Of a DNA stretch of 34,534 nt, positions 72 through 28,572 are shown in pieces. The DNA is from Paracamarosporium sp. OC-R06-R3 (Eukaryota > Ascomycota > Dothideomycetes > Pleosporales > Didymosphaeriaceae). How positions within the stretch are numbered: position 1 is the stretch's first letter; the number at the start of each line of letters is the position of its first letter. The translations under genes and the position numbers were made by a program. Under the pieces are notes generated by a model, which was not told the DNA's origin, made no database searches, and was given only the letters and a program-made list of their open reading frames with translations. The stretch lies in the NCBI GenBank assembly GCA_019828545.1, contig JACVRA010000716.1, positions 1-34,534 of the forward strand, in the 5' to 3' direction.

Positions 72-1310
72 TCACACTGCCCGTAAGCCGGCTCTCAACC
101 CCCGCTCGATCGATCCCATCAAAGCATCGACATCTTTTAGATTGTTGTAGAAACCAAACGATATGCGCACTCCATCTCGATAATGCGAGACATACACTTT
201 GTCCGCCTCAAAATGCTCTCTCCAACCCTCATCGAATAGTTTCAGAACATACAGATGCGGCGCTCTATGTTCTGCGGTACGACTACCAACAACCTCGACT
301 CCTGCTTTATCGCACCGCAGCAACAGTTCATATCCGAGACCCCGAAGGTGCTGCTCAACGCGTGCCACATTCACTTCATATAGCAGGAAGCTGAGCGACG
401 CTTCAAGAGCTGCTATCCCAATCAGACTGACGTTGAGATGTTCGTATCTTTGAATCGTGTTGTGATACTGAATGTCTGGCTTCGCTAGAAGTGTGCTCTC
501 CAAATTTGAGATTGCTCCAGCGCCAACTATGGGAGGCGTGGGCTTCAAGTCCGGCAATACATCAGGATCAATGTACAGCGCACCTAGACCCGTTGGGCAT
601 CCAAGTCCCTTGTGGCAGCCGAATGCTGCAGCCGATACGTTCCAAGCTTTTGGGTCAATCGAGGCAACGCCCACGTGTTGGGTGATGTCAACTAGGACAT
701 GTATGTTCTTTGGGCGAAACGCGGCACTGATGTCTCGAACATCATTTAGTTGGCCGTTATGAAACATTATGCTTGAGATACCGATCGCGATTGTCTTATC
801 ATCGACGTGTGGTTGAAAGGTAGATGCGTCGGCATATCCTTTGTCACCAGGCGGTATACGTCGGACCTCGAGGCCTTGCTCAACAAGCGCGAGCCATCCA
901 TAGACGTGATTAGGGTGTTCAGTATCCAGTACGACCACGTTTGCCCCAGGGTGCCACTTCAAGGAGCGCTGAAAAAGGTTCAAGCCTTCAGTCGTATCGC
1001 GTGTGAATGCCAGGGTCTCATCGCCCACATTTAGATATTTAGCAAGAAGCTTTCTTGCTTTTTGTGTTGTCTTCTGCCATTCCGGCTTTGGGTGCGAGTG
1101 GTTTGTAGCTTCGTCGAAGAATTGGTCAACGGCAGCTTTTACTCGCACATTCATAGGAGGTTGAAAAGACGCATTGGCGTAAGTAATGTCGGAGTTGGCG
1201 ACCACAGGGACGAAAGATCGATATGTTGATAAGTCGGAGATTCTTTTGAACCGCGAATCAGTGACCTTCACTGCAGCGTCTCCGATACCGTTCGCAGCAT
1301 TTCGACCCAT
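72..1310 (-). CDS. Class V PLP-dependent aminotransferase (isopenicillin N epimerase-like)
   Basis: Intact intronless frame of 412 residues from an ATG at 1310. It has the fold-type I aminotransferase pattern: TRDTTEGLN (about 103-111) for the phosphate-binding turn, D208 in VDITQHVG for the pyridine nitrogen with Q211 beside it, and the Schiff-base lysine K234 in GCHKGLGCPTG. This layout matches class V enzymes (cysteine desulfurase, isopenicillin N epimerase and related lyases), which are near 400 residues, so the gene looks complete and functional. No signal peptide is visible, so it is probably cytosolic. The substrate cannot be told from sequence; fungal relatives occur both in primary metabolism and in secondary-metabolite clusters. 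It is transcribed away from the amino-acid permease, whose ATG lies 424 bases off, and the two may be co-regulated. Family is firm, reaction is not. Confidence 0.9.
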   Translation of the reverse strand: MGRNAANGIGDAAVKVTDSRFKRISDLSTYRSFVPVVANSDITYANASFQPPMNVRVKAAVDQFFDEATNHSHPKPEWQKTTQKARKLLAKYLNVGDETLAFTRDTTEGLNLFQRSLKWHPGANVVVLDTEHPNHVYGWLALVEQGLEVRRIPPGDKGYADASTFQPHVDDKTIAIGISSIMFHNGQLNDVRDISAAFRPKNIHVLVDITQHVGVASIDPKAWNVSAAAFGCHKGLGCPTGLGALYIDPDVLPDLKPTPPIVGAGAISNLESTLLAKPDIQYHNTIQRYEHLNVSLIGIAALEASLSFLLYEVNVARVEQHLRGLGYELLLRCDKAGVEVVGSRTAEHRAPHLYVLKLFDEGWREHFEADKVYVSHYRDGVRISFGFYNNLKDVDALMGSIERGLRAGLRAV

Positions 1311-1734
1311 GTTGTAGCTTGAAGTAACGAAACCACGAAGATAACGGTAAAAAATCTTGTTTATCTCGTGCCATTGTTATCAGTTGGCGTCGACTGATGC
1401 CGTTTTGTATTGCCTCATTGCGGGCTTCGTACTTGAGGTTTCTCCACTCCCTTAGCCGCGCGGGCTTCGTCCTCCGCGCGCTAGCGCCACACTACAACGG
1501 CCCGATTGACACAGCGGACATCGTCCACCGCCTTGTTATAGAGTGAGTGATAATGGAGAAACTAAATCGGAGGATAGATGCCGCCGTTTATCTTTCTATC
1601 TTATCGCGCTCCCCAGAACGCGCTAATCCCGCAAAACATCATCCAGGATCCACCCGTTCGGTCACATATAAGATACATTGAGCACACGTTCGTCATTCAA
1701 ACTTTCTCAACTTTTTATTTGCCCTGGATTTGAA
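1311..1734. promoter_or_regulatory. Shared divergent promoter with GATA motifs and a TATA-like box
   Basis: The 424 bases between the two divergent ATGs contain GATAAC at 1340-1345, TTATCT at 1361-1366, TTATC at 1588-1592 and CTTATC (GATAAG on the other strand) at 1600-1605. A TATAAG lies at 1667-1672, about 65 bases before the permease ATG, a plausible TATA box. GATA motifs are the recognition core of AreA/Nit2-type nitrogen regulators in fungi, and amino-acid permeases are classic targets. Nitrogen control of this pair is therefore a reasonable inference, though single GATA cores occur often by chance. Confidence 0.45.
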
Positions 1735-3631
1735 ATGGAGAATAAGGAATGTGAGCTTGCTCCGACGGTCTCCACCACGGAGGGCGAGATGACCGTCACA
1801 AATCCTAGCCAGAATCTCAAAAGAGAATTCAAGTCACGGCAGGTTAACATGCTTGCTATCGCTGGTGCTATCGGCACAGGTCTTATTATCGGGTCAGGAC
1901 AAGGGCTTGCAAGAGGTGGCCCGGCCAGCCTATTCCTCGCTTACAGTATCACCGGTGCGGTGATCTATTTTGTCATGACTGCATTAGGCGAGATGTCGTC
2001 TTTCCTTCCCATGGACCAAGGTTTTAGTGGATATGCGGTATGTGATCTCCAAGCGTCAAGCAAACTTTTCCTATATGTAGATATCCCATCATCCCTTCCG
2101 AAGTAATTCCAATCATTTCAAGCTTTACTGACTTTGTACTCGCGTTTCTAGGACCGCTTTGTTGATCCTGCACTGAGGTAAATTCGAGATTCCTTGCAAA
2201 TTCCATGACGCTAACTTCGCAATGCAGTTTCGCAACGGGTTGGAATTATTTCTTCAAGTACGCCATTGTGCTCGCTAACAACCTCACTGCTGCCGGCCTT
2301 ATCATACAATATTGGCGACCGGACCTCAACGTTGCAATTTGGGTTACTGTCTTTGCCGTGGTCATCATCTCCATCAACCTTCTGCATGTCGGTTCGTTCG
2401 GCGAATCCGAGTTCATATTATCATCTGTCAAAATTATCACGCTCCTCATCGTCATGCTCACCTGCCTCGTCATTGCTCTCGGCGGGGGTCCAAATCACGA
2501 TAGACTCGGATTTAGGTACTGGAATACACCTGGAGCCTTCGCCGAATACTTACAGCCCGGGCCTCTTGGGCGTTTCCTTGGCTTTTGGGCTTGCATGGTG
2601 CAAAGCTGCTTTGCCTACACGGGCACAGAGGTCGTTGGCGCGGCTTTCGGCGAGACACCCAATCCAAGGAAGAACATCCCTAGGGCAATTCGACAGACTT
2701 TATGGCGCATCTGCATATTCTACATTCTAGGTGTGATACTACTTGGCATGGTCGTTCCTTATGACAATGGCCGGCTGGTTGGAGCAACGAAAGCAAAAAC
2801 AAGCGCGGCCGCTTCGCCGTATGTCATCGCAATTCAACTTGCTGGTATCAAGGTCTTGCCGGATATTATCAACGCTTGTCTTTTAGTTTTTGTAATCTCT
2901 GCTGCTAACACAGGTAAGTGCTATTGATTATCAAATGGATATGAAGGTCTCACTAACATTTATAGACATCTACGTCGGCGCCAGAACTCTCTACTCCCTC
3001 GCCAAATCCCACCAAGCACCAGCCATCTTCCTTAAAACTACCAACAATGGAGTACCCATATATGGCGTTGCTGCAACATCTGTATTTGCTCTTTTGGCAT
3101 ATATGAATGTGTCATCGGCTGCCTCCACAGTCTTTGGCTACTTCGTTAGCTTGGTCACCGTATTCGGCACGCTCAATTGGATCAACATTTTGGTGTCTTA
3201 CATCAGTTTCACGCGCGGCATGAAAGCGCAAGGTATTTCAAGGTCGGAACTCGCCTATCGAGGGCCGCTGCAGCCGTATGGTGCGTGGTTTGCACTGGGC
3301 ATGACGGTGCTGATTACATTTTTCAATGGTATGTGTCTCCTCAAATCAACGTTCTCAATATGCTAGCTGAGGCTGACATCAATGCAAAGGGTACAACGCC
3401 TTCATACCGCACTTTCGAATCAGCACCTTTATGACGTGTTATATTGGCATAGTAGTCTACCTCGTCAACATATTTGCATGGAAATTGATCCATCGCACTC
3501 GTAGAGTTAAAGCTACAGAGATGGATCTGTATACCGACCGTCGTAGATTCGAGGAAGTGCAGGAGGAAGAGGCAGCTGCTTCGGATAGCTCTAGAAGCTT
3601 CCTTACCAAGCTAAAGACGAGGAAGTCGTGA
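1735..3631 (+). CDS. Amino-acid permease (fungal AAT/YAT type, APC superfamily)
   Basis: Five exons: 1735-2037, 2152-2177, 2228-2913, 2966-3328 and 3390-3631, giving 539 residues. All junctions are GT..AG, and the tiny second exon restores the family motif RFVDPALSFATGWNYFF. The N-terminus has the signature FKSRQVNMLAIAGAIGTGLIIGSG at the first helix, with the GAIGTG turn that binds the amino-acid backbone; about twelve hydrophobic helices follow, then a charged cytoplasmic tail rich in E and K. Length and motifs match plasma-membrane amino-acid permeases (general, proline or arginine type); specificity cannot be read. The frame is open from 1678, but that position is TTG, so the ATG at 1735 is the start. 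GATA motifs upstream suggest nitrogen regulation. It may supply substrate to the divergent aminotransferase. Confidence 0.93.
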
Positions 3632-4711
3632 ACTATTCTAAGCTATGGCAGAATACTGTGTATTTATCCTGAAAACTTAACACGAAGTCGAGTTTGATGC
3701 AAACGGAGTACACAACCAATGTTGCAGGGAACACGATGGTTAATTGCACATGAACGCTTTCAGCCCATCTTGCTCCGCCAGAAATCCACCGAAGTCCCTA
3801 GGCTTGCATCCAATAATGCCACGTAGATCTGTTAGTTCAAAACAATGGTGTGCCGAAGTCTCAAAAATCGGGAAAAGACGGCTGCTTGGGGTTCATAATT
3901 TAATACATAGGCATTTAAAGCCTCCTCCTCGAACGCGACGCCCGCCTCGGCAAATCATAGCACCAGAGCTAGTAAAGCGTCATGCTCCTGTTTCACTACA
4001 AAAAACCTAGGAATCTTACAGCAGCTTAGTGTAGTCAATGGACAGCCCCCGCTCTTGCTAGAAGCATGTTAATGCCATCAGCAAGATTACAAGTTAGCGT
4101 AAACAACCTCATCAGACTACGTCTCTTATTATCTTCATACAAAGTTAGTATCTGGATGCATCTTCAGCTAACCGCTTGCGGGGAGTGGAGTTCACAAGTT
4201 CAGATATCAGGTGTCAAGCAAAAGTTCCTACACCCAAGAGGCCAAGAGGTGGGGGACACAGCATAGAACGAATCAGCGATGGGTGGCAAATAGCGTGACA
4301 CTTGGACTACTAGCGCGCTTAATAACAAAATCCTCACGTAGCGCCTGATTGGCGCATTAATGCGACGATCAAAGCTCGGAGATTGTTAGATAAGATGATC
4401 AGATAAGATTATACCCTTCTATGGTACGTTCCCGTGCCTCCATCCTAGCCTTACATTTGCCCATACTGCCCAAGATGGAAAGAATCTGGGCGCAGGTCCC
4501 CGAGACCTTTTATTATTCGTGAACGTCTTTTCTGCACTACGGGTATTCCACAATTGGGTACCCGATAGAATCAATAATTTAAGCTAGAGGCTGCTCTTCC
4601 CACACATGGCGTTTACTGGTGTTTGTGAAATCCTCAACATTGGTTGAGCGTTTGATCTTTCCAGATTACCTGCCTTTTCTATCTCATCTTTTCATATATT
4701 AGGAAGGCAGA
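3632..4711. other. Intergenic region between permease and monooxygenase
   Basis: About 1.1 kb without a convincing gene. Small open frames here start mid-sequence and show no family resemblance or splice signals. The only feature I can support is the GATA pair at 4389-4407, described separately. Confidence 0.6.
4389..4407 (+). promoter_or_regulatory. Pair of GATAAG motifs upstream of the monooxygenase
   Basis: Two identical AGATAAGAT stretches place GATAAG at 4389-4394 and 4402-4407, 13 bases apart and in the same orientation, about 305-320 bases before the monooxygenase ATG. Close GATA pairs are the preferred arrangement for AreA/Nit2-type fungal nitrogen regulators. The divergent promoter at 1311-1734 has similar motifs, so these neighbours may share a nitrogen input. 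Confidence 0.4.
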
Positions 4712-6620
4712 ATGGACGGAACACTGCTCCCGGAACTACCAGATCTCAAGCTTCACGAAAACGTCAAGAAAGAGGAGGTAGACGCCAGAAAGGTGATCAC
4801 GGATTGGCTGTCCGCATTGGAGAATCGTTTCGCATCAAATTCATTCTCGAATCTATCCGAACTATTCATCGATAACTGCTGGTGGCGAGATATTGTCGGG
4901 CTTACCTGGGACTTCTCCTGCAAACAGGGACATGAAGCGATCAGTACGTTCCTCGTGACGGCAGAGCATGGGCTATCGGAAATTCATCCGAATATATTCG
5001 GCGGGTTGCAACCGCAAGTTGTGGAATTTGGAGGGCAGGTCTGGGTTCAATCGGGCTTCACATTTAGGACGCCGTGTGGAGAGGGCAAAGGTCTACTGAA
5101 GCTAACAAATGTCGGGATAGGGCACTGGAAGGCTTGGACAATGTACACGCAGCTGGAGGAATTAGACTATGTGAAAGAGATGGCGAGGAAGAAGGCATAT
5201 GGCGTGCCGCCAGCGCTGGTGCCTGCTGTGAACGGAGTTGATGCCGTTGGGGTTGAGGAACCTCAAGTTTTGATTGTGGGGGCTGGTATGTAATATCTCC
5301 ACTGATAGAATCTGATACTGACGCTTCATAGCACAAGCAGGTCTCATGCTCGGCGCACGACTCCAACACATGGGCATCAAAACACTTCTTCTAGAACGCA
5401 ATGCCCACCTGGGCGAATCATGGCGCCAGAGATACCAAACCGTCACGCTCCATACCCCAACGTATACAGATCACTGGGCGTACATGAAGATCCCCGAGAC
5501 ATGGCCAAAGTACCTTATTGGGAACAAAGTTTCTGAGTTCATGGAGCACTATGGACATCTCATGGGTCTTGACATCCAGTACAACACCGAGGTCCAAAAA
5601 ACGACCTATGATGAGGCCACTAAGAAACATTTAGTTCATGTCATGACACCTGAGGGAGCTAAAACACTTTCAGCAAGGCACGTAGTACTAGCCACGGGCC
5701 TCTTTGGCGACGAGCCAATCATGCCCACTTTCCCGGGGCAAGAGTCCTTTAAGGGTCAAATATACCACTCCAAATACCACACCTCAGCCGCCTCTATCCC
5801 AGACCTAGCTCACAAGAAGATCGCAATTATCGGCGCAGCGACCAGCGGTCACGACATCGCCGCAGATTTCGTCCTACACGGCTCCCCTTCCGTCACCATG
5901 GTCCAACGGCACCCAATATTTTCCATTTCCCGCGATGCATGGGAGACGTTCATGCTTTCATTGTGGAATCTGCCTGGCCTTAGCACCGAGGAAGCAGATC
6001 TACTGGGTAATGCGTTCCCCTTGGCCGTTATCCGAAAGATGAGTATAGGATTGACAAAAGCAATGGCCGAACATGACAAAGTTGTACATGATGGGTTGAA
6101 AAAAGCTGGAATGGGATTGAAGGATGGGGGTGATGGCTATGGGCTAGCGGATTACCAACTCATCAAAGGAGGCCAATATTACATTGACCAAGGTGCGAAC
6201 GATATGATCATCGACAAGCGGATCAAGATCGCCCGATGCGAGCAGGGCATCGAAGAATTTACTGAGAAAGGCCTTGTACTTGCTGATGGAACGAAGATCG
6301 AGGCTGACGTTGTGGTGCTTGCGACCGGATTCCAGAAAGAAACAATGACGATTGAGAAGTTGATGGGTGCAGATGTGTTGAAGAAGCTGCACTCCAAGTT
6401 TGGAAAGCTGGACGAGGAGCAGGAGAGAGCAGGGGTAAGTCGAAACTTCTCAAGGACAATATATACTGACTATGTGTAGTGGTGGAGACCAACCGGCATT
6501 CCTGGATTCTGGTACATGACCGGAAGCTTTATGTACTGTCGACAGTTCTCGTTGCCATTGGCGTTGCAAATTGCTGCCATTGAGAAAGGATTGAAAAAGT
6601 CGAATATGTCATGTATGTAA
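4712..6620 (+). CDS. FAD-dependent monooxygenase with N-terminal NTF2-like domain
   Basis: Three exons: 4712-5285, 5332-6434 and 6480-6620, giving 605 residues. Residues ~25-165 look like an NTF2/SnoaL-type cone, with WWRDIVGLTWDF followed by a beta-rich stretch. The flavin monooxygenase part begins with the FAD fingerprint LIVGAAQAG (190-195), then ATG at ~311, an FMO-type signature FKGQIYHSKYH (331-341), the NADPH fingerprint IIGAATSG (359-364) and LATGF (521-525). Relatives are the fungal YUCCA-like and 4-hydroxyacetophenone-type monooxygenases, which hydroxylate carbon or nitrogen or insert oxygen next to a ketone. The middle glycine of the FAD GxGxxG is alanine in this splice model. Moving the acceptor to 5340 would keep frame but delete the AQA triplet. 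Likely cytosolic; substrate unknown. Confidence 0.88.
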
Positions 6621-6835
6621 GTATGAGGAGTGAATGCTAAAAACTTACCCTTGGAACAAGCGCTAGGATAGAATTAAATGGCTATAGATTCAATAGTGCA
6701 AAATCAAACTGCTCTTTGACTGAACCTACTGTGCACCGAGACTAAATGTGAGGTCACTGTTTAAGTTACTCTAGGATACCTCTAATCGTTCGTACTACGC
6801 TGGGGGTCTTGGATGTGTCTATATAAAATAGCGAC
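6621..6835. other. Short intergenic segment
   Basis: About 215 bases between the monooxygenase stop and the esterase remnant. No gene or structured element is visible; a run of AT-rich sequence probably serves as 3' untranslated DNA. Confidence 0.5.
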
Positions 6836-7113
6836 TCAAAGGCCAAACCAGTCAATATCAAGCTCTTTATGCACAGGAACCGTGTGTCCTACACCCGTAG
6901 CCGAGTACCCAAGCAATTTCTGACCATCACCGTGTACCATCTGGGTGTAGTTCTGTTTAGGTGTGGTAGTGTTGCTCTTCATAAACTGAAGCCCATTACT
7001 GTTGCACTGTTCCAATGTCTCCGATAGGTATCTGTACGACACCATCTTGCAGCATCACCATGTCACACCAATATCTTCAAGTACTTTCCTTTATATCCTG
7101 GGTACATTTCCCC
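6836..7113 (-). pseudogene. Remnant of an acetylxylan esterase (CE1) C-terminus
   Basis: On the minus strand, MYPGYKGKY (starting at 7107) is followed by an in-frame TGA (7063-7065) and HGDAA, then after a frame change near 7035-7060 by NYTQMVHGDG and the ending GVGHTVPVHKELDIDWFGL. This order (MYPGY, HGDAD, YTQMVxGDG, GVGHTVP, DLxWFGL) is that of secreted fungal acetylxylan and feruloyl esterases of carbohydrate esterase family 1, where the HTVP histidine belongs to the catalytic triad. Only the last ~95 residues are recognisable. The signal peptide, the GxSxG serine motif and most of the enzyme are absent from the DNA upstream, which soon runs into the next gene. It is a dead fragment, not a gene. 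Confidence 0.8.
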
Positions 7114-7255
7114 TACTGACCTGGCTCATTCAACACCTTTCTTTGTGCCGTTGCGTACGCAGCGATCACCTCCTATTGAAATAGATTGTTTCTGTTGTAA
7201 CAGTTCAGATCTTACAATTCCCGAAGCGGTAGTCGTACCGGTAGGTGACTAATTC

Positions 7256-8520
7256 ATGCAAGCGCCATACCGACTACGCCGCCTCCTGTCATCAAACATC
7301 ACCTCTCTTAAACTCGAACTATCCTGCGAAGTCCACCTTCTATTCCGCGCAATCTTAGGTTTATCAACCTTTTTCTTCTTCGTTCACTCTCGCCCTGTCG
7401 CCATGTTTTCTAGCGCCTCGAAATTTTGGCGGGCCATCGCTGGCCTGCCATTTATTGGTCTTATGGTTTTGTGTTTTCGGACAATGGATATTAAGAAAAT
7501 GGTAGCTCACCAGCAATCATTCTTAGACTCTGGGAAGATCGAATGGAGCGGCGGATCTATCCCCATACTCTCTCGCTTCCATTACGTACAGTTTCTTGAC
7601 GAGGTTTGGCGCGGCACGACAGCATCCTTTTCCCCTTCCACAATAGGATACGATGCCGTAAGCTCGTGGCAAATGTTTTCATTTTTGAACGATCTGGGTC
7701 CGCTGTATGCTGTATGGTTTTTGGAGTCGAGCCGCAGAGGCAATGTATGGTCACCGGCATATATGTAAGTCAGCAACAGGATTGAGATAACATAAGCTCA
7801 CCAAGTACTAAGAACATAATCAGACCAACGGTTTTCACCTTTCTAGGCCAAATTCTAGGACTTGGATGCGTCGCGCCGTCGTTCTACTTTCTCAGCTTTA
7901 CCTTCGGGCCATCCGCCTCGGACTTTACTCGGTCGGCTCCGCAGAAGAAAATAGTGTCGGAGCACTGTGCTGCGCTGCTTCCGCTTATCCTACTCCTTCA
8001 TACATCTGAGGTATTCGCTGCGTATCTGGCTTTTGATCCGCTGACGAGACATTACTGGACTTGGGCCTGGCAGATGACTCCCCTATGGTTGGGTGTTGCT
8101 AACTTCGCCATCTCCAGGTTGTTTAACAGATATCCAATGAAGGCTGGTTGGATAGTGTCTCCGAAAACTCTCCTCGGCGTTATGAGTCTCATCTCTTCTG
8201 GAGTCTGGCTATACACAGTCGTAAGCTGCGAGTATCCCCTACCAACGGTGTTCCTGCCCGAAACGTCAATTCAGTCAGAGTTCGTGCCGCACATGCGACG
8301 CGCCCTTCAATTTGATGAGATCTGCACATTTGCGAGCTCATTCCTCTGGCTTGCATATTTATTCTTTGATCTCCACTCGGCTGGACTGGTGGGGAATGGG
8401 TGGCTGATCCCAGTCGCAATTCTCCCAGTCGCTTCGGTGTTGATTGGCCCGGGGGCAGCAATTGCAGCGGGATGGTACTGGAGGGAGGGCAAACTTCAAC
8501 TCAACCAGTCGAAAGACTGA
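7256..8520 (+). CDS. Polytopic membrane protein, PaxA/AtmA/AscI-like (candidate terpene cyclase)
   Basis: Two exons, 7256-7764 and 7824-8520, giving 401 residues. A second in-frame ATG at 7403 would give 352 residues, and family members I know of are nearer that length, so the start is uncertain. Several hydrophobic helices are spaced along the chain. The central motif SSWQMFSFLNDLGPLYAVWFLESSRRGN, followed by IPTVFTFLGQILGLGCVAPSFYFL, resembles the fungal membrane-protein family found in indole-diterpene and meroterpenoid clusters (PaxA/AtmA, AscI/AscF, MacJ-like), some members of which cyclise epoxidised prenyl chains. It would act in the endoplasmic reticulum membrane. Its neighbour downstream is a UbiA-type membrane enzyme in the same orientation, which supports a terpenoid role. 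Gene is firm, cyclase function is inference. Confidence 0.8.
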
Positions 8521-9263
8521 GAGCTTCTCGGCTAGTAGATATGACGTGATAGCGCTTGAGATCGCTTGCTAGCGAGCTCGATTCTGGTTTCATCGGTGCG
8601 CCAGTATGGGTATGACGTAGACTGGCTTTTTGTTGAGGCAAAAGGCGAACGCCTTTATTCTCGTATACAAAGACTATTTTCTGCAACACCTTTCCTTTTA
8701 GGGAAATTTTCCTGTAGTGGCGGCTTACCACCCCTCCTAGATTAACGAATCTGCAATCTTTTGCCTTTAAAATACGTGAGCCTGGTCATGCATATGCAGT
8801 AAGCAGACCGAATTTTAGCATGCGCAGTTGGTTTTGGAATACCCGGAGAATTTATAGGCCTGCCTCAATACTGCATGTCTGCCCGCGGACAGAGGATAAA
8901 TAAATTCAGTTCCAATGTCTTACGCACGTCATACGCGCCATTTCAGTCTTTTCTCCTTATGTGTCACTAAGAGTATTCTGCTTTGGGCCACAACATCGTA
9001 TAGGCCCCTAGCTTCTGCCTTTCTTATGACTGGACTTCTGCCTTGATTTTTCTCTTTAAAGATCTGACACTGACGCATCGGTCTTGGCTCACGCGTATCT
9101 TGCGGCTCATCCAATACAAATGTCAATTGATCCCTTTGACCCACTATTACGACTCCGGTCAGTACATAACTAGTGGATACCAATATAGAGGTTCTCAGCA
9201 TATAAGACAAAGTGTGAAGCATAGGAGGTGGTAAGAACGAGAACCACCACAAAGGTCTCTGAA
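8521..9263. other. Intergenic region between the two membrane-enzyme genes
   Basis: About 740 bases. It holds the perfect inverted repeat at 8641-8656 and, near its end, a CT-rich and AT-rich stretch expected of the promoter of the UbiA-type gene. Open frames on the minus strand here begin at TTG and show no family resemblance. Confidence 0.5.
8641..8656. repeat. Perfect 7-base inverted repeat downstream of the membrane-protein gene
   Basis: AAAGGCG, a two-base AA spacer, then CGCCTTT, about 120 bases after the stop codon of the gene at 7256-8520. It could form a small stem in the 3' untranslated RNA or serve as a symmetrical protein site. Nothing else links it to a function. Confidence 0.4.
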
Positions 9264-10232
9264 ATGCGCAAGGTCAGTAACAAGCCAATCCTCTCAGCCT
9301 ATCCACACTCTCTGACAAAATGCTAGTTACTTGAATCAGGACTCTTTCACTTGCGAACGCTGTGGCTTTTCACCAAAAGTGACCTCAAAACTGTCATATT
9401 CCCCCAAGCTGCGTTCGGGTTAGTCATTGCGCTCTCGGGGCCCCTTCTCACCACTAACCATACTCCCGGGCTTCTCGAAGTCTTAAAGAACCTTCCTAAG
9501 GTTTCTTTCTGGCTTTGGATCAATCTTCTCAACGAAGTCATTTCGAACCAACGCCTGTCAGGCTCTATTGCTGAGGATAGAATTAATAAACCATGGCGGC
9601 CTCTTCCAAGCCAACGGATTACACCAGAGTCAGCAAAGCACCTGCTCCTCTACGTGATCTCCACGATATATTCTACAAGCCTCATAGCCGGAGGGTCAGA
9701 GGCTGCTGTCACCTTGATAGTATTTTCGCATATGTACAACGAGCTCGACGGGGCAAATGAGAATTGGCTTGTCCGCAACGCGCTTAACGCGTGCGGGCTC
9801 TCGTGTTTCAGCATTGGTGCTGCGATTGTGGCTACCGGATTTGATAAACACTTGGTTCTGGACGAAATATACACCTGGATAGGCCTGCTCGCTGTCGTCA
9901 TCACCACCACCGTGCAGATGCAAGACCTACCAGATATGGAAGGGGATAGGGCGAGAAATCGAAAGACACTGCCATTATTATATGGGCACTGGATCACAAG
10001 GTGGTCAGTCGCTATTCTGGTCGTGTTTTGGTCTATTTCATGTTGCTACTACTGGCAGTTGGAAGCTGTGTGGTACCTTCCTTATGTGTTAGTCGGAGCA
10101 TATATGGCAGTAAGAGTGTTGCTGATGAGGACGAAGGACTCAGATGAAACGACATGGAAACTTTGGTGTTTGTGGATGATGATTTTATATTCCTTGCCAC
10201 TGATGAAGAGGGTCTCAGGTCTCGAGAGTTGA
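9264..10232 (+). CDS. UbiA-superfamily membrane enzyme (prenyltransferase or Fma-TC/EriG-like terpene cyclase)
   Basis: Model: 13-base first exon 9264-9276, intron 9277-9339 (donor GTAACA, branch CTGAC at 9312-9316, acceptor CAG), second exon 9340-10232; 301 residues. The main frame opens at TTG, so an upstream exon is required; this short one is the only ATG I found that fits phase. Family marks: TLWLFTKSDLKT, then SNQRLSGSIAEDRINKPWRPLPS (residues ~73-95) where UbiA proteins have NDxxDxxxD, and QDLPDMEGDRARNRKTLP (199-216), a well-kept second Asp motif (D200, D203, D207). Seven to nine helices, membrane-bound. The altered first motif is of the kind seen in the fungal UbiA group that includes the fumagillin bergamotene synthase and the cyathane cyclase EriG, so it may cyclise rather than transfer a prenyl chain. 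Confidence 0.85.
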
Positions 10233-10407
10233 AAATAGTGTTAATCCGCGTTATCTGTTCCCTGGATGCTTCCGACGTTTGCAAAACAATTCGGTGCCGA
10301 GAGCCGCCTTCCTTGATATCGAAAGGGCATAAAATGACAGTATTACCCTCACAGGTTCATTGGATCTCATAATATGTGTTGTGCTTGCGGCACCTATCCT
10401 TCAGCCA

Positions 10408-11150
10408 CTAGTATGATGACGTCAGTTTACATTCCACGTGCATCAGCATTACCCAAGATCTCAAGCTCTCCAAAGGTTGGAGACACTTAAAAGCGGAAAT
10501 AACAGAATTGTAAATAACGACGCATAGCCCACGGCTTATGAGAGAAGAAGTTGCAGGTTGAGAGGAAGCAATAGTAAGAAGCTGCTCGGTCACTTGAGCA
10601 GCTGAAGCATTTTCATCAGGAGATATCGTACAATTCTTGAAATCCTGAGCCGATCTAATCAATCACTCTGTAAAATTTCTATGGCTCGTTTGGATGCCTT
10701 CAGCCCACGCCAAAAGTCTCCTAGCGCATCTATCTACGTGCACATTGCCATAAGCATTCCATCTTCCTTTTGCAACAGTCTGGACATCCCGAAGGACATA
10801 CCACATGTGGGTTGAAAGGTGATCCTCTCGTGTCCACACTATCATCTTCGTCCCAGTTTCGCTACACACCGGCTTTTGTCTTGAAATGCCGCACACAAGA
10901 ATAGCCGCAAAGAGGAATGTTTCATGTCGTCGATGCCTCAACACAGACAGGGCTTGCAACGCAGCCGTGACAGGTCCGTCGAGAGATCTATGGCAAGCGT
11001 ACGCCTCCCGAAAATGAAGACCTATATGTTCATAGCAGCAATTATCTCCTAATCTAACCTGCTTCTGTGTGAAATAAGCTAGGGATCCATATCGTATCGT
11101 ACAGGGAATACAAGGTATAATATAAAAGGGTAAAGCACAGTATCGCGGGC
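10408..11150 (-). other. Possible degraded coding region, family unknown
   Basis: Reading the minus strand from about 11150 to 10663 gives one open frame of some 160 codons with a protein-like composition (for example HFREAYACHRSLDGPVTAAL and RHETFLFAAILVC), but no ATG near its beginning. A second frame continues from 10662 to 10408 after a stop at the junction. The helix-rich pattern, with a block like LxALSxLRxxRHE and WYVLRDVQTVAKG, vaguely recalls the C-terminal half of short fungal zinc-cluster transcription factors. I cannot defend that assignment, and no Zn2Cys6 motif is present. It may be a decayed gene or chance. Confidence 0.25.
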
Positions 11151-11436
11151 GGTGACTTTCCCTAAAACGGCTAGCGTCTACTAGTGTCTTAGCAACAGTC
11201 CGTATCTTGTAGGGCCTGCCTAGCCTTAGGTTACTTACTCCTCATAGCAGTAGTTTAGACATTTAACTAGGTAATAAAATTCGTTAAAACTTTTCCCCAG
11301 ATTAGATTGCGTACCTTCACAAGAAAAATTAGGCGTATGAAATTTTACTTCACTCAACCTGTATCGGCGCAGGTAATCAAGACTCCGGATTCGGTGTGAC
11401 TCGATGCAGAGGCATATGGGAGTGCGTGTAGAGAAA

Positions 11437-11494
11437 NNNNNNNNNNNNNNNNNNNNNNNNNNNNNNNNNNNNNNNNNNNNNNNNNNNNNNNNNN
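11437..11494. other. Assembly gap (58 N)
   Basis: Fifty-eight undetermined bases. The true length of missing sequence is not known, so any gene crossing this point would be cut, and distances across it should not be trusted. Confidence 0.99.
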
Positions 11495-11782
11495 ATATGA
11501 TCAGTGAGTCCCAAGCCTCGTTACACAACCCTTTTAGGGTTAGTTTAGGAAAAAGCTCTACTATATGCAGTGAGACTGCAGATACATGGGACCATGCAGT
11601 CAGATATCAAATATAGGAAGGTGAATGGTTCTTCTGTCGCATAAGCGCACTGTCCGGCGTTCATCCCAACCACGCCGCGAAATTAAAACTGTAATAAAGC
11701 CATTCGTACATGCAGAATCCTTGATAGTGCGTGGGCTGACACCGGTAATCTTGGGTTATTCTGTGCAATGTTGATATTGCAG

Positions 11783-11968
11783 TCAGAATGATTCGTCGCT
11801 AGACCACCTCCATTGGCAAGCCACCAGCTCCTCGAATGGGATAGTTGACACGTTTAGCAGACTATATGCAGTGTGCCTCGCACCGTCTTCCAATGAACCT
11901 AATGCAGGTGTGATAATTTTGCCGTTACTGCCGAGTCCCTTGGTTTGGATGACGACTGGATCCAACAT
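11783..11968 (-). other. Short open frame divergent from the FAD oxidase
   Basis: A 61-codon frame with an ATG at 11968, containing GSNGKIITPALGSLEDGARH and ending in ACQWRWSSDESF. The composition is protein-like, but I recognise no family and see no splice partner. It begins only 68 bases from the ATG of the FAD oxidase on the opposite strand, so it would share that promoter. It may be a fragment of a former gene. Confidence 0.2.
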
Positions 11969-12029
11969 TCATAAATCACTCCTTCTGTTCATTACTCCTT
12001 TCCCTCTCTTTTCGATCTTGTCGACTAGC

Positions 12030-12047
12030 ATGAATTATGGATACTGA
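12030..12047 (+). promoter_or_regulatory. Upstream ORF overlapping the FAD-oxidase start
   Basis: An ATG at 12030 opens a five-codon frame (MNYGY) ending in TGA at 12045-12047. It overlaps the main ATG at 12037 in another frame. Because it is the first AUG after a CT-rich leader (about 11985-12020), scanning ribosomes would meet it before the main start, so it could reduce translation. This assumes transcription begins upstream of 12030, which is not shown by the sequence. Confidence 0.4.
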
Positions 12048-13540
12048 CGACCTATTTCTGCGTGAGCAGATTAATGCGGCAGGGTTGCAGGAGTTGGTCA
12101 TATTTCCTGAGTCCGATGCATACGCTGCCCGCGAGGCTTCTTATTGGGCCGGAAACGCTCCGTTACACCCCAACTGCATCATCCAGCCACGCACAACGAA
12201 CGATGTAGCTATTGTAATTAAGGCTCTCGGACGATTTGATGGACCTGTCGCGCTTCGAAGTGGTGGCCATACTCAGTGGACAGGCTCTAACGATGTCAAC
12301 AACGGTGTTACAATTGACCTGGGCCAGATGAGGAATGTGACTTACGACGCCCAGTCCAAACTTGCCTCCATTCAACCTGGCCAGCGCTGGGGTGACGTCT
12401 ACTTGGAGCTTTTAAAATACGATGTCTGTGTTACTGGCGGTCGTGATGGAAACGTGGGAGTCGGAGGGTTCCTGACCGGTGGTGGTAACTCATACTATAC
12501 AGGACTCCATGGTTGGGCTTGCGATAATGTTGCAAACTTTGAAGTCGTACTTGCTAACGGGGATATTGTCAATGCAAACGCCACTTCACACTCTGATCTC
12601 TGGACTGCTCTGAAGGGCGGTTCAGGAAATTTCGGCATTGTGACACGGTTCGACATGTACACATTCCCGGCTAGAGACCTATGGGGTGGAATGCGAGCTT
12701 CGATTAGGAAAGAGGGAGATGCGCTTGCGCAGACGATGGTTGACTTCACAAACAACAACGAGAAGAATCCCGAAGATGCATTCATTATCAACTACACCTT
12801 CAATCCCAAATCATCGTCCGATGTTCTTGTTGCCTACGTTATAGTTAATACTCATGGTGTGGCCAATGCATCGGCCTTCGATAGGATTCTAGAAGTACCA
12901 GCTATTATCGAAGATGTCAAGAAAAGAACCATCCGAAACATGGCTAACAGTTACCTACTTCCAAGCCGGCAACAGTAGGTGTACCCTAGGCTGTCACTTT
13001 TCTGTGCATTCTACATTTCATTCAACTAACTAAATCAGGCAAGTTTGGTTCACGCTTAGCTTTAAGAATGACATTAGAGTTATCCGAAAGGCGGCTGAAT
13101 TGCACGACAAGCTAGTTAAAGAACTCAAAGAGTTGATCCCCGCTGGTGATTTTTCCACCCAGTGTCTTTTCCAGCCAGTCCCGACTCTCTTCACGAAACA
13201 CTCTGTCCAGCGGAGAGGCAATATGCTGGGTCTAGACAAAGTCAAAGACAATTCACTGTTGTGGCTAATAACTGGTGCCTCCGAGACTCCCCAACAACAA
13301 GAGATTATGCGAGAAAAGCTAACGGCGCTTACTTCCACCCTCGACCGATTTGCACAATCTGAAACACTCAAAATCGATTGGCAGTATTTGAATTATGTCG
13401 ATCAAACGCAAAACCCTTTGGCGAGCTACGGACAAGAAAATATTGACTTTATCAGGAAAGTCGCGAAAAGATATGACCCATCGGGCTTGTTTCAAAAGAA
13501 GCTGGTAACAGGTTGGAAGATTTCTAGAGTCTCTGAATAA
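12037..13540 (+). CDS. FAD-linked oxidase, berberine-bridge enzyme type (AA7/PCMH fold)
   Basis: Two exons, 12037-12974 and 13039-13540, giving 479 residues. The intron (donor GTAGGT, acceptor CAG after CTAAC) removes an in-frame TAG and joins SRQ to QVWFTLSFKND. The FAD domain shows PRTTNDVAIVIK, then RSGGHT with H78 placed for covalent histidyl-FAD, VGVGGFLTGGGNSYY (140-154), GWACDNVANFEVVLANG and LKGGSGNFGIVTRFD. The C-terminus has the BBE ending RYDPSGLFQ. The second covalent anchor, a cysteine just before the VGVGG loop in bicovalent members, is absent (RDGN), so flavin is probably held by one bond. No signal peptide is seen, unlike many secreted members, so the enzyme is likely intracellular. 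Such oxidases close rings or oxidise alcohols in secondary pathways; the substrate is unknown. A short uORF overlaps its start. Confidence 0.92.
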
Positions 13541-14093
13541 TACGAAAGAGATACTTTTGGATATGACTTGATATTATGTGTGGAACGAACAATTTGGAAT
13601 AAAGTGGATGGTTTTGCGCATGTAAGCGCATATATGATGTTTCGGGACTGATCTGGTCACGATGAACGGGGTATATCTTAGGTTAGGTATTCACAGTCTC
13701 ATCGAAACATCCGTGTAAAGCTTGAATGTGATCTGTTCGTGACTCATTCGTCGAAAAGCGACGTGCGCCCACCTTCTCATGGCTAATCTAACAATAGAGT
13801 TTCTTTGTGGTACTGCAATATCCAGATGCTGAACGATTCTCAATTTGAGCCGAAATATTCGTGCAATCTACGTGTAGTCTAGAATTCGCTTTAGGGGAAC
13901 TGCTGTCGGACAAGGATTTCGGACCGGTTGGCTGTAGTGGCACAACCAGGCAATTGGGCATGAGTGTCTGCCTCACCTAATAGCTATTGAGACCTTGAGC
14001 CTTGTGGCTTAGCGCGACCGCGGCACGTTCACTCAGGGTAATATATCTTGCGGCTTTCCGCCAAGAATAGTTTCATGTGTTCAATGCAAAATC
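13541..14093. other. Intergenic region
   Basis: About 550 bases between the FAD oxidase and the broken dehydrogenase. I see no gene or repeat in it; open frames are short and without family resemblance. Confidence 0.5.
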
Positions 14094-14869
14094 ATGGCGG
14101 AAAATATCACTGTCTTGATAACCGGACTGAACCGAGGTATTTCTATGCTGCTAAGCATAGGTGACATAGAAGCTGATCTCTTTAGGGATTGACTGCGCAC
14201 TGCTCGAGCTATACGTTGGTCAAACTAATACCATCGTTGTCGCTGGCGTTCGAAATCCCGCCACCCAAATATCTCAGGGATTAAGAGACATACCTACCGC
14301 GCAAGGCAGCAGTCTCGTGCTCGTACAAATTGACAGTGCTGTCGACGAAGATGCCCACACAGCTATCACTGAGATCCAATTCACTCATGGCATTAATCAT
14401 TTGGATGTAGTAATTGCCAATGTATGGGCGAACATCCTGGGTCGGTTTCGGCAACCTTTCCGATAACGTCCGGAACCGTTTGAACGTTAACATCAGAGGC
14501 GTCCTGGCTTTGTTTCAAGCAACGGAGTACTTGTTACGGAGATCCAATGATCCTAAGTATTTCACTATGTCTACAAATTTGGGGAGTCTTGGGATCATGG
14601 AATATGCTCCTTGGCCTTGATATCCCTACGGGATATCGAAAGCCGCACTCAACTATTTGACTCGCAATACCCATTTCGAGAATGAGTGGTTGACAGCGGT
14701 CGTGCTCAGTCCGGGCTGGGTACAGACAGATATCGGTCAGTGTGCAGCGGACGTAGTAGGCCTCGGGGTCGCTCCTCCAAAGCTGGAAGATAGCGTAAGA
14801 GGTCTCATACAAGTTATAAGTAAAGAGATTCTACATGAGAATGGTGAAGGTCCGATTTATTCTAATTGA
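14094..14869 (+). pseudogene. Broken short-chain dehydrogenase/reductase (SDR)
   Basis: Starts well with an ATG at 14094 and a good intron (14137-14185), giving ITVLITGLNRGID, the cofactor loop of classical SDRs (TGxxxGIG, here GID), then VVAGVRNP and LDVVIANVW, where ANAG is expected. Between about 14418 and 14462 the frame shifts, and the family blocks NVRNRLNVNIRGVLALFQ and FTMSTNLGS continue in another frame. That frame is then cut by TGA at 14618-14620, just before the catalytic YGISK and the late motif SPGWVQTDIG. No GT..AG pair can remove the shift without also removing conserved residues. The relatives are fungal ketoreductase-like SDRs about 250 residues long. It was probably once part of the neighbouring metabolic set and is now dead, unless the shift is a sequencing error. 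Confidence 0.82.
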
Positions 14870-14910
14870 AACGTAAATCGACCAAGCCTCCCATGACGCG
14901 ACTTCGGGAA

Positions 14911-15027
14911 CGTTCATGTCATATATTCTAAAGATAGTTCCATGGTAGGGCCGCTCTGAGAACACCTTCACAAGGCTTCATAGGAAACCTGAAAGACGCC
15001 TATAGAATATCTATTGTGCCGTATTGT
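14911..15027 (+). repeat. Degenerate dispersed repeat, copy A
   Basis: This stretch aligns by eye with 16441-16557 in the same orientation and almost without gaps. Shared blocks include AGTTCCATGG, ACACYTTCACAAKGCTTCA and RAATMTCTATT. Similarity is roughly two bases in three overall and higher in the blocks. It lies just after the broken dehydrogenase. It could be an old small transposon (MITE-like) or the edge of a larger element; no terminal inverted repeats are evident. Confidence 0.5.
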
Positions 15028-15205
15028 AGAGGATTGTAGATGGACTTGATTTAGTGTGAGGGTTTCAATATATAAAGATGGTTTTTATAAGTGATGCACT
15101 TGAAGATACTAAGAGAGCAATATTAAAGCTAACCTAGACACACCTACAGTCCACATAATTGCATGATAATGTTAAACATTAAAGTAGCGCACCAGCCTTA
15201 AGCTG

Positions 15206-15971
15206 TCACGCATTCGCAAGAGCAGGGACTTTAGCAGCCCACTTACACGCCTCCAACTCCTCCAGAACCCACTCAGCAAGGCCTTTCCTCTCTAACTGCA
15301 CGCCGACATCGCCTACCATCCCGGCCTTAACCGGCTTAGCTTCTCCATCCTTCAACATTGGCACCCGAAACACCGTCCAATTCATCTCACTTGGAAGTGT
15401 GACCATCTGAAGCGTCATCGCATTGATTTCGGCGTACGCAGCGTGGACGAATAGATAAACAAACAATACCATGAGAGAGTAGACGATGGAGAAACGGTCT
15501 TGCGGTGCGGAGTAGGAAGCTGTGCTCACGAACATCGTACGCGTATATGAGTACTTTTGGAGGAGTGGGAGAATAATACGGTAACCGTCGGCGATGGGCT
15601 GTACGCGATTAGCTTGCTGGTGCTTATAGGACGCGAAAGGAAAGTAAGAGATAGAAAGTACCGTTGAGCCTTTCTTCACGTCACCTAGTACAGGTCCGAG
15701 GAAGGATACACACGTTGTTGCGCCACAGGCCACGGCTTTGTCGATGGCTGTAGCGTCGGTGAGCTGGCCCGTGTGGATTGTGACATTGTTTGCGATTTCA
15801 GAGGGTAGTTTGGAGGGATTTCGAACGTAGAGAGTTAGAGTGTGACCGTCTCTAAGAGCGGCGAGAGAGAAATCTTTTCCGGCAGGGCCTTTGTGTGGTT
15901 AGCATGGGAGAGAGATGTTAAATCTTGAACAACGTACTAGTTCCGCCAAGAACGAGTATATGCCGGGGCAT
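15206..15971 (-). CDS. NmrA-like NAD(P)-binding protein (atypical SDR)
   Basis: Three exons on the minus strand: 15971-15938, 15888-15662 and 15598-15206, giving 217 residues. The first exon is only 34 bases and supplies the Rossmann start MPRHILVLGGTSPAGKDF, where families have GGTGxxG. The open frame continues through 15599-15661, but that 63-base piece has GTACTT..ACAG ends and would insert 21 odd residues between LGDVKKGST and PIADGYRIIL; I treat it as an in-frame intron. Such proteins are NmrA/HSCARG-like sensors or reductases that bind NAD(P)H; the SDR tyrosine-lysine pair is not in its usual place. Relation to the neighbouring metabolic genes is possible but unproven. Likely cytosolic. 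Confidence 0.8.
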
Positions 15972-19774: not shown

Positions 19775-20200
19775 CTACGAGATCGGAGCGTGAAAGCTGA
19801 AACTTCCGTTCGGATCGTACTTATTCTTGAGCTCGTGTAACTTATCTTGACGCCACTACTCAAAATCGTACCAATTTTCTACAGTCTCTTCCCTACATGC
19901 GTAATTGATATGTGTTTAGAATTCTTGTATACCACTATCTCGAAATCTCACCCAAACCTCTAGCTTGTTTATTGAGCTCATTCCCGTCCTCCTCATAGAT
20001 AATGAGTGATGCCAATAGGAGATGGTTATCGCGGAACGGATAGGGTATAGAGTCGTTCGGGATGACCGGCATCTCCTGCAGCGAATATCCCTCGATCAGG
20101 AACAGTTATTTATTCAAGGCAGGCCATCTACGACCATCATCAATCAACTCTTGCTAGCGACTCATCTACCGTGCAGACACATGCTTCAGCCTTACTTCCA
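19775..20200 (-). pseudogene. Remnant of an FAD-linked (berberine-bridge-like) oxidase gene
   Basis: On the minus strand one frame gives IPYPFRDNHLLLASLIIY and EEDGNELNKQARGLGEISR before a stop. After a frame change near 19900-19920 another frame gives INYACREETVENWYDFE, a TAG stop, then WRQDKLHELKNKYDPNG and a terminal stop at 19775-19777. The last block is the typical C-terminal end of FAD-linked oxidases (W..R..KL..LK..YDPNG.F), and INYA precedes it in the family. The stop between DFE and WRQ could come from a glutamine codon by one C-to-T change. The N-terminal FAD domain is not recognisable upstream. It is a second, dead oxidase about 6 kb from the intact one at 12037-13540. Confidence 0.75.
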
Positions 20201-21074: not shown

Positions 21075-23753
21075 TTACCACTTCCATATCTTCGGGCCAA
21101 AAGTCTCTCCATCCGCAACAAGCTTTCGCACGGCAGTGCCGGCGCCATCAACAGTCCTACCGATGATCGTGGTGCCCCAGTAATCAGGCATCGTTCCCCC
21201 AGGAAGCTGGACACAGAAGAAAAGGACAATAGCGCAGAGCGCGAGGCCAACGTCGAGGGCGGCAGAGGTGATGTAGTTGTACTGCATCCACCAACCGAGA
21301 TACCTTGAACGGATGTACTTGTTGAACACGTAACCGAAGAGACACCAAGCGAGCTGTAGCGTAGTTAGTCATCTGATAAACATTGGTAGGAATGCATCTG
21401 TTATCACTTACAATGTTCATGGAAGAGTACGGGGGTACGTAGCCCATACTACCGAAGATGAGCGGCCAGCTCGCCTTGCGGATCCAAGAAATCTTGGGAA
21501 ACATGCGCGCAAGCCCGTACACGAGGAACGGAGCGGCAATGCCGACAAGCCAGAAGTACTGCAGGTCCTTGTAGACTGCGTCGCCGGAGAAGAGATGCTT
21601 GGGGCCGATGGCGCCCCAAATGACACTGGCGTTGTAGAAGGTCTTGACATAGGCGCAGGTGAAGAAGCCAGAAGCTTCTGATGTGCAGACGTTCTTGATG
21701 GCGCCTAAGGCCCACTGCACGGTGGCAAGCTGGCAGAGACAGGACCAGACTGTAGCGACCAATTGGGCGAAGAAGAGTGAGCGTTGCGGAACGTGCATGT
21801 AATGGCCTAGCTTTAGGTCCTGGCAGAAGTACAGGGCTTGTGTCATGACGATATAGCCGAAGGTTTTGAAGAGCATCATGGCGATGGGGTGACCCGGTTG
21901 GACGTAGCCGATGATGAACTCGGTGAAGACGTTGAGACCGAGTTGGATGTTGGTGAAGGCTTGGATGATTCCGATGGGAATGGTCCATGTGGCAGCGATA
22001 ACCAGCGATAGGATGACTGAGTACCAGGCCATATTGGTTGGGTAGCAGAGAGCCGACACGAAAGCAAAAACGATCATAACGGCCAATAGCGCTAGGTACC
22101 ACCAGGTAGGAACGAGCTTGTACTTGCGCATGATCTTCATGTGGATGTCGTCGAGCTCGCCTCGGGACGCTTTCCAGCGGCGCCAGATCTCGGGGCCGTG
22201 GAACAGGTATGTTTGGCTAATGAGGGCAGCGATAGAAGCGAAGTTCATGCCGTAGGAGAGCGCAAAGGATGTGGAGAGGAACAGAGGCGAGTAAGATTCA
22301 TACGCGACGGGGTCCACGACATGCTCGGGAGTGAGAATCCTTGAGGTGTTGTATACAGCACCGGTGTTGTCGAGAATGCTGTTTTGTAGAATCGGAAGGT
22401 AGTCGGAATACCACACACCCGAGTAGTGAAGAGCCGGGACTACGATCCAGACAAAGAAAACGATACCAAAAGCTGTATTGGCATGCGCTGTATGTATAGT
22501 CAGCATCTGCATCATGTGCACTTCGGAAACGCAAACTTACCGTGCCAAGGGCTAATTAAAGGACTGTTATAGAATCCATTGATTTGGGCCCAGTCGAGTG
22601 TGAAACCTGTGAATGGGAATCCAAGTGCGATACCCGTGCTTTGCCCAAAGAGCTGATTGACGATGATGTTGTCGGGCTTGATCCAGGTTACCCAGGCAAA
22701 GTAACTGAATGCGGGAATGATGTAATCCGGGAACCAGTGCCAGACGAACGTACATGCCATGACGATCATGAACAATCTATAACGAGAGATTGACCAGCCA
22801 TTGGTCTTGGACGGGTCACTCGGGCTATGGTCATGCAGAGCATACATGAAACCGACATTGACCAAAGCACCCGGCCAGATCATTGCTGCAGGTTCGACAA
22901 GGAACTTCCTCACGGAGCCTGCTAAACCGAAGCCGAGACATTGAGTGGATAAGGCGAAGAGAATATTGAAGCCCCAACCGAACTGGCTGGTATCGAACTT
23001 GTAGAACTTCCTGAGCGAGACCACGGTGTCAAGGAAGTAACCAGCACCACCTCCAAACGCGGCATTAGCCATCGCAACGATGATGACATGTTCCTTGGTG
23101 TTGAATGGTCCGGGGTTGAGATTGGCCGTCCTTCCAAAGATCTTAAACTCTTTATTAGGAAGGAATCTTGCAGCAGCGATACCGATTGGGTAAGCTAGCA
23201 GAAGCACGACGTAAGGCCCAATGAAGATAATGGGGTAACGTAGCAAGAAGAGTGCGTTGACTCCAGAACAAATGGTGGTCATAAGCAGACCGATGATCCA
23301 TGCTCGGAGGGTTCCTGCTGGTACATCCTGGTCATAGTTTCGAACAACAGCGCGGACCTGGAGGATTAGCAAAGAACAGAAGAATATGGAAGATTCACTT
23401 ACTTCTGGGTACGGAGAATTCTCAATCACTTCCCCAACCAGCTGCGCCTCGCCTTTGTGGTCGTGTGCCGCAGTTACGTCGTCTACCGTGTCGATGGTTT
23501 CGTCTGGCATGTTTGGGTCCCATTTGTGGTCCTGGCGAAAGACAGCGAGACGATGGTTTGCCTCTGTCTCGCTGATGTCGCGAACGACCTCATCGATGAC
23601 CGCATTCGCATCGCCATGGCCGGCCACTATCTTTGCAGTGCCGGATCCTTCTCCATTGCTCTCGAGCTGGGACAGCTCAGCGACGGTGACAGGCTCTTGA
23701 TCAGTATTTGTTCTCCTGAAGCCCAGCCTCTTACCGAAAGCTTTGTGGGCCAT
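21075..23753 (-). CDS. Oligopeptide transporter, OPT family
   Basis: Four exons on the minus strand: 23753-23403, 23357-22541, 22487-21412 and 21353-21075, giving 840 residues, normal for OPT proteins. The frame is open up to 23876, but that codon is GTG, so the ATG at 23753 is taken. The first intron is 45 bases and in frame; removing it restores the family signature SPYPEVRAVV. Other marks: LRAWIIG, NLNPGPFNTKEH, FNILFALSTQCLGFG, then PWHAHANTAFG rebuilt by the second intron, and NILAWCLFGYVFNKYI rebuilt by the third. About 14-16 hydrophobic helices follow an acidic cytosolic N-terminus. These are plasma-membrane proton-coupled importers of small peptides or related compounds such as glutathione; specificity cannot be read. 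Palindromes upstream may be regulatory. Confidence 0.95.
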
Positions 23754-28470: not shown

Positions 28471-28572
28471 GTTGAGTGGATTAGAAAAAGGATCGGGGTG
28501 TGTAATGCCGCAGTACTAAATTTTTCCGACAGCTCGAAACTAAAATAGTGTTAAAAGAAAAGGCGATACCAT

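Follow-up and report, generated by a model that had tools for sequence, protein, structure and literature searches.

The locus analyzed here raises the question of whether two membrane proteins encoded side by side can form the core of a terpenoid pathway. It lies in the 43-Mb genome (337 contigs) of Paracamarosporium sp. OC-R06-R3 (assembly GCA_019828545.1) and was studied over its entire contig JACVRA010000716.1 (C303): the window, as this stretch of 34,534 bases is called below, is one whole contig, so that either edge may truncate any cluster. A preliminary description of the sequence had proposed a small terpenoid or meroterpenoid cluster of eight genes within 16 kb. What we retained of it was a terpenoid-type gene pair, whose UbiA member carries terpene synthase motifs, while an eight-gene cluster over positions 72–15971 was not demonstrated. 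The two core genes do lie side by side on one strand, 743 bp apart in our gene models, in which the first UbiA exon is inferred (Table 1). The Pfam scan, covering 16 window frames (10 and 6; smaller frames were left out), agreed with the earlier statement that polyketide synthase (PKS), nonribosomal peptide synthetase (NRPS), dimethylallyl tryptophan synthase (DMATS) and prenyl-diphosphate synthase domains are lacking; four polyprenyl synthase matches were found genome-wide, none of them on this contig. We give about an even chance to the reading in which two genes form the core of a terpenoid module, with a UbiA-type synthase, an oxidation step and a step carried out by the membrane protein.

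The UbiA-type enzyme

The window UbiA protein scored 73.6 bits in Pfam (cut-off 34.2), had the UbiA fold and contained motif II, QDxxDxxxD (QDLPDMEGD, residues 202–210), a signature of UbiA-type terpene synthases (PMC9835599). Its motif I agreed in letters and spacing with that printed for Pb_BisA, N-x4-G-x4-D (NQRLSGSIAED versus NQRHPGSVAED), the pattern NQ-x8-D being kept in 41 of 42 aligned UbiA rows, and a tyrosine (Y140) was present between the two motifs. The prenyltransferase version of motif I, NDxxDxxxD, was absent from the window protein and from all 42 rows and was kept in both presumed prenyltransferases of the same genome (C234 and C196), from which the tree separated the synthase-like group at 100/100. 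Judged by motifs and tree, the enzyme is most probably of the terpene synthase type rather than an aromatic prenyltransferase; it was 44–46% identical to database proteins whose sources name them bergamotene synthase.

These features bear directly on the rival reading of a small meroterpenoid pathway, in which the UbiA enzyme would prenylate an aromatic compound and the membrane protein would cyclize the prenyl chain. Its outline has a parallel in the mos cluster, where a UbiA-like prenyltransferase, a Pyr4-family membrane cyclase and flavin enzymes occur together and escape antiSMASH (PMC11109268), and the window likewise unites a membrane protein, a UbiA enzyme and a flavin enzyme. However, the window enzyme has terpene synthase motifs in place of NDxxDxxxD and stands apart from the prenyltransferases in the tree, while WExx(Y/F), a motif known from PaxB-type proteins (PMC3760044), was absent from the window membrane protein and from all of its 37 aligned homologues (0/37), and PaxB is shorter (243 versus 352 amino acids, aa). 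We regard the meroterpenoid reading as improbable.

Genome-wide, 13 UbiA matches were present in Pfam, of which C83 and C167 were left out of the examination and C231, which we take to be COX10-like, was left out of the tree. Seven loci, including that of the window, were UbiA-terpene-synthase-like; the six further genes were located on C65, C76 (two), C282, C32 and C211, and five of them contained QDxxDxxxD. On C65 a BBE-type (berberine bridge enzyme) match was found about 6 kb from the UbiA-type gene (224785–225105 versus 230969–231853), as in the window.

The membrane protein

The start of the membrane protein gene, previously placed at 7256, was most likely at 7403, because most homologues begin at that ATG. 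No Pfam match was obtained for the product, and none of the 37 aligned homologues reached a Pfam cut-off, three families being hit weakly by one member each. At least 55 homologues were recovered by direct search and at least 74 with the 37-member profile (about 8,000 candidates scored in each search), making 101 distinct homologues taken together; among those listed, no name indicated a tested function and none was AscI, CtvD or AurD. In the 37-member alignment D97 was invariant and E108 and D285 were at least 90% conserved, all three being present in the window protein. The AlphaFold2 model of P0001, a homologue 70% identical to the window protein (pLDDT 93.6, pTM 0.91), placed the conserved acidic residues in predicted helices. 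The protein is a candidate for an epoxide-opening or heterocyclizing enzyme, and the label "PaxA/AscI-like" given to it in the preliminary description was used as a lead only.

A single paralogue was detected in the same genome (C73, locus L021, 7098–8287), bringing the membrane-family loci to two. It was 32–43% identical to the window protein, had, as judged by eye, a splice donor corresponding to that of the window gene in location and phase, and was accompanied by NmrA-like and FtsJ-like genes; no UbiA match was present on its contig.

A second rival reading keeps the membrane protein in the pathway and denies it catalysis: it would be a PaxA-type accessory, a carrier or scaffold for membrane enzymes. 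PaxA has 356 aa, membrane helices, one intron at nucleotides 345–404 and no domain hits; it was required in Penicillium paxilli, yet Aspergillus oryzae made paxilline without it (PMC3760044). By description, the integral membrane proteins PaxA/IdtS, known from indole-diterpene clusters, resemble the window protein (352 aa, domainless), and the single phase-2 introns of PaxA and the window gene are nearly in the same place (after 344 and 362 nucleotides, respectively; PMC3760044), a likeness that is suggestive only. PaxA, however, accompanies a geranylgeranyl diphosphate synthase, PaxM and PaxB, none of which was seen at the window, and the conserved acidic residues in the modeled helices look catalytic. 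The accessory role appears unlikely, although somewhat less so than the meroterpenoid reading.

Linkage of the two genes in related fungi

With two membrane-family loci and seven UbiA-terpene-synthase-like loci in 43 Mb, two such genes lying no more than 1 kb apart would be expected about 6.5e-4 times by chance. In relatives, linkage was scored as an identical size of the longest contig for both proteins, comparing the 101 membrane homologues with 119 UbiA rows for which a size was given (best 120 of 378); the contigs themselves were not viewed, so the measure speaks for co-location and not for distance or orientation. Within these bounds the pair withstood the refuting condition set in the preliminary description, a lack of synteny elsewhere, as co-location was recovered in three other records: three exact coincidences (348,186, 79,969 and 18,849 bases) were found against 0.10 expected by chance. 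The first belonged to Lentithecium fluviatile on both sides (membrane protein P0001, UbiA P0056) and the other two to JGI records on both sides, which we read as metagenome contigs. Seven further pairs differed by 1–25 bases, all on contigs shorter than 15 kb.

The three linked UbiA members (P0056, P0059 and P0086) were 68, 66 and 65% identical to the window enzyme, and P0056 and P0059 fell inside its seven-member clade (99/94), P0086, a 204-aa piece, having been left out of the tree. On the membrane side P0001 (70% identical) and P0034 (58%) grouped with the window protein in a set of seven (87/85), and the short P0221 was found only by the profile. The apparent linkage in three other records points to a small terpenoid pathway.

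A 60% identical membrane-protein homologue (P0002) came from Histoplasma capsulatum, a fungus of another class, and clustered with the window protein and those of Lentithecium, Bimuria and Massarina (87/85); horizontal transfer is a possible cause of this placement.

Comparison with known systems

The fungal UbiA-type class I synthases Fma-TC, Tps1A/Tps2A and Pb_BisA share with the window the UbiA fold, QDxxDxxxD, the tyrosine between the motifs and nearby oxidoreductase genes. In tps1, however, the synthase gene stands beside those for a cytochrome P450 (P450) and a methyltransferase, whereas its neighbor in the window encodes a domainless membrane protein. The epoxide-opening enzymes AscI, CtvD and AurD are, like the window protein, membrane proteins with conserved acidic residues (set beside it by description, not sequence); CtvD is also given as domainless (PMC11109268), and in the CtvC/CtvD and AurC/AurD pairs a flavin monooxygenase gene adjoins that of the membrane protein, as in the window. 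AscI acts on a meroterpenoid and CtvD and AurD on polyenes, while the partner in the window is a UbiA-type synthase. Another predicted transmembrane protein, the epoxide expandase DovD of deoxyverrucosidin biosynthesis, acts on an epoxide together with a flavin monooxygenase (PMC12312803), but in a polyketide pathway, and was again likened by description, not sequence.

Proposed pathway

For the two-gene terpenoid module the motifs, the UbiA fold, the conserved residues and the shared contig sizes are observed, whereas the substrate, the products, the order of steps and the parts of the flavin enzyme and the membrane protein given below are inferred. Motifs I and II of the UbiA-type synthase would bind Mg2+, and the enzyme would ionize a prenyl diphosphate, most likely farnesyl diphosphate, inside the membrane and convert it into a cyclic hydrocarbon. 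This lipophilic product would then be oxidized or epoxidized by a monooxygenase, perhaps the flavin enzyme whose gene lies upstream, and the domainless membrane protein would act last, within the membrane, on the oxidized product. Its D97, E108 and D285 would most likely protonate and open an epoxide, giving an oxygen heterocycle or a diol; such epoxide opening would become the likelier chemistry if the PaxA/AscI label were right. A more far-reaching version, which we consider possible but doubtful, is a membrane-only module in which the epoxidized UbiA hydrocarbon would be recyclized by a dedicated polytopic membrane enzyme to an oxygen-bridged terpenoid with a new skeleton.

A number of findings weigh against the terpenoid module. 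The printed formula of motif I, NXXX(G/A)XXXD, had no literal match in the window UbiA protein, nor in Pb_BisA as printed, and the spacing N-x4-[GA]-x4-D was kept in only 11 of the 42 aligned rows. No P450 was present in the scanned window frames, no solved structure resembling the P0001 model was found, and the membrane protein was not connected by sequence to AscI, CtvD, AurD or PaxA, for which no reference sequences were compared. P0221 (34% of columns filled) was placed outside the window group in the membrane tree. Among the best 120 of 378 UbiA rows, eight were at least 60% identical to the window enzyme, three linked and five unlinked: four of the latter were on contigs shorter than 32 kb and the fifth, Periconia digitata P0057, was on a 3-Mb contig, with no membrane-protein homologue from this species among the matches listed. 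Finally, membrane-protein homologues occur in many fungi and 98 of the 101 matched no contig size of the 119 UbiA rows; therefore, the family may have a role outside terpenoids.

Neighboring genes

Table 1. Features of the 34,534-base window
Feature	Position	Strand	Remarks
Class V PLP (pyridoxal phosphate) enzyme (aminotransferase/desulfurase superfamily)	72..1310	-	single exon; Pfam 126.7 bits
Amino-acid permease	1735..3631	+	five exons; Pfam 411.9 bits
Flavin monooxygenase, 605 aa	4712..6620	+	exons 4712-5285, 5332-6434, 6480-6620; Pyr_redox_3 82.6, FMO-like 52.4 bits
Domainless polytopic membrane protein, 352 aa	7403..8520	+	gene model; exons 7403-7764, 7824-8520; single phase-2 intron
UbiA-type (class I, intramembrane) terpene synthase, 304 aa	9264..10232	+	exons 9264-9272 (inferred), 9327-10232
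Assembly gap, 58 N	11437-11494		between UbiA and BBE genes
BBE-type FAD oxidase	12037..13540	+	two exons; FAD_binding_4 83.4 bits; frame break near 12.95 kb
SDR (short-chain dehydrogenase/reductase)	14094..14869	+	frame switch at about 14.43 kb; stop in frame at about 14.62 kb
NmrA-like NAD(P)H-binding reductase	15206..15971	-	Pfam 48.6 bits; has introns
Open frame, 854 aa	16673-19234	-	no Pfam match
OPT oligopeptide transporter	21184-23753	-	Pfam
Glycoside hydrolase family 72 frame	26428-28515	-	Pfam

The earlier gene calls proved mostly right, since Pfam backed the PLP enzyme, permease, flavin monooxygenase, UbiA, FAD_binding_4 oxidase and NmrA-type reductase. The flavin monooxygenase, encoded directly upstream of the membrane gene, had 8acs_A as its nearest solved chain (248.3 bits over 33–598); the Baeyer–Villiger monooxygenase and classical flavin-containing monooxygenase fingerprints were tested and neither was present. 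It is a possible pathway oxidase.

Two supposed tailoring genes were broken. The SDR, already called broken in the preliminary description, had the frame switch and stop listed in Table 1 and reads as a pseudogene, judged from its own reading frames alone. In the BBE oxidase gene the domain match of the second exon stayed below the cut-off (16.0 versus 20.6). Its paralogue on C19 stays in one frame up to its splice donor, unlike the window gene, whose frame switch is a possible draft-assembly error, the 58-N run lying nearby. The BBE oxidase and the apparently intact NmrA-like reductase are at most putative members of the pathway. A minus-strand frame at 19785–19850 resembled, by eye, the C-terminal end of a BBE oxidase in decayed sequence; the window BBE exons used as query did not recover it. 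The class V PLP enzyme distantly resembled cysteine desulfurases and C-S lyases; both it and the permease are probably outside the pathway. Nothing ties either to the gene pair, and the earlier hint of a nitrogen-containing product has only their adjacency behind it.

Such decay favors a third rival reading, in which the 16 kb would hold ordinary neighbors, unrelated and partly decaying, with the core pair inherited side by side in related fungi and lacking a joint function. Both contig ends are cut, BBE relatives are common (44 exon-level matches genome-wide, the window's own included), and the five unlinked close UbiA relatives fit this reading as well. Against it, both core genes are open and linked in three other records while two nearby genes are broken, and a pair so close is hardly expected by chance; we give the neighbor reading little probability.

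Significance of the gene pair

UbiA-type synthases within gene clusters are already known. In the open-licence literature, no paper was found that joins such a synthase with an AscI/CtvD/PaxA-type protein. The usual cluster-finding programs may miss such a pair: UbiA-like enzymes were not considered by SMURF (PMC4205913), antiSMASH did not detect the small mos cluster, in which a membrane cyclase occurs with a UbiA-like enzyme and flavin enzymes, and fungal genome mining is known to overlook enzymes that lack a recognized domain (PMC11109268). If the membrane-only version is right, the pairing of a UbiA-type synthase with such a membrane enzyme would be a new logic of pathway construction, conserved in several related fungi, and programs that look for soluble synthases would not see it. 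The recurring pair of UbiA synthase and domainless membrane protein could itself be used to search genomes, and would offer a defined terpene substrate for probing the role of a widespread family of fungal membrane proteins.

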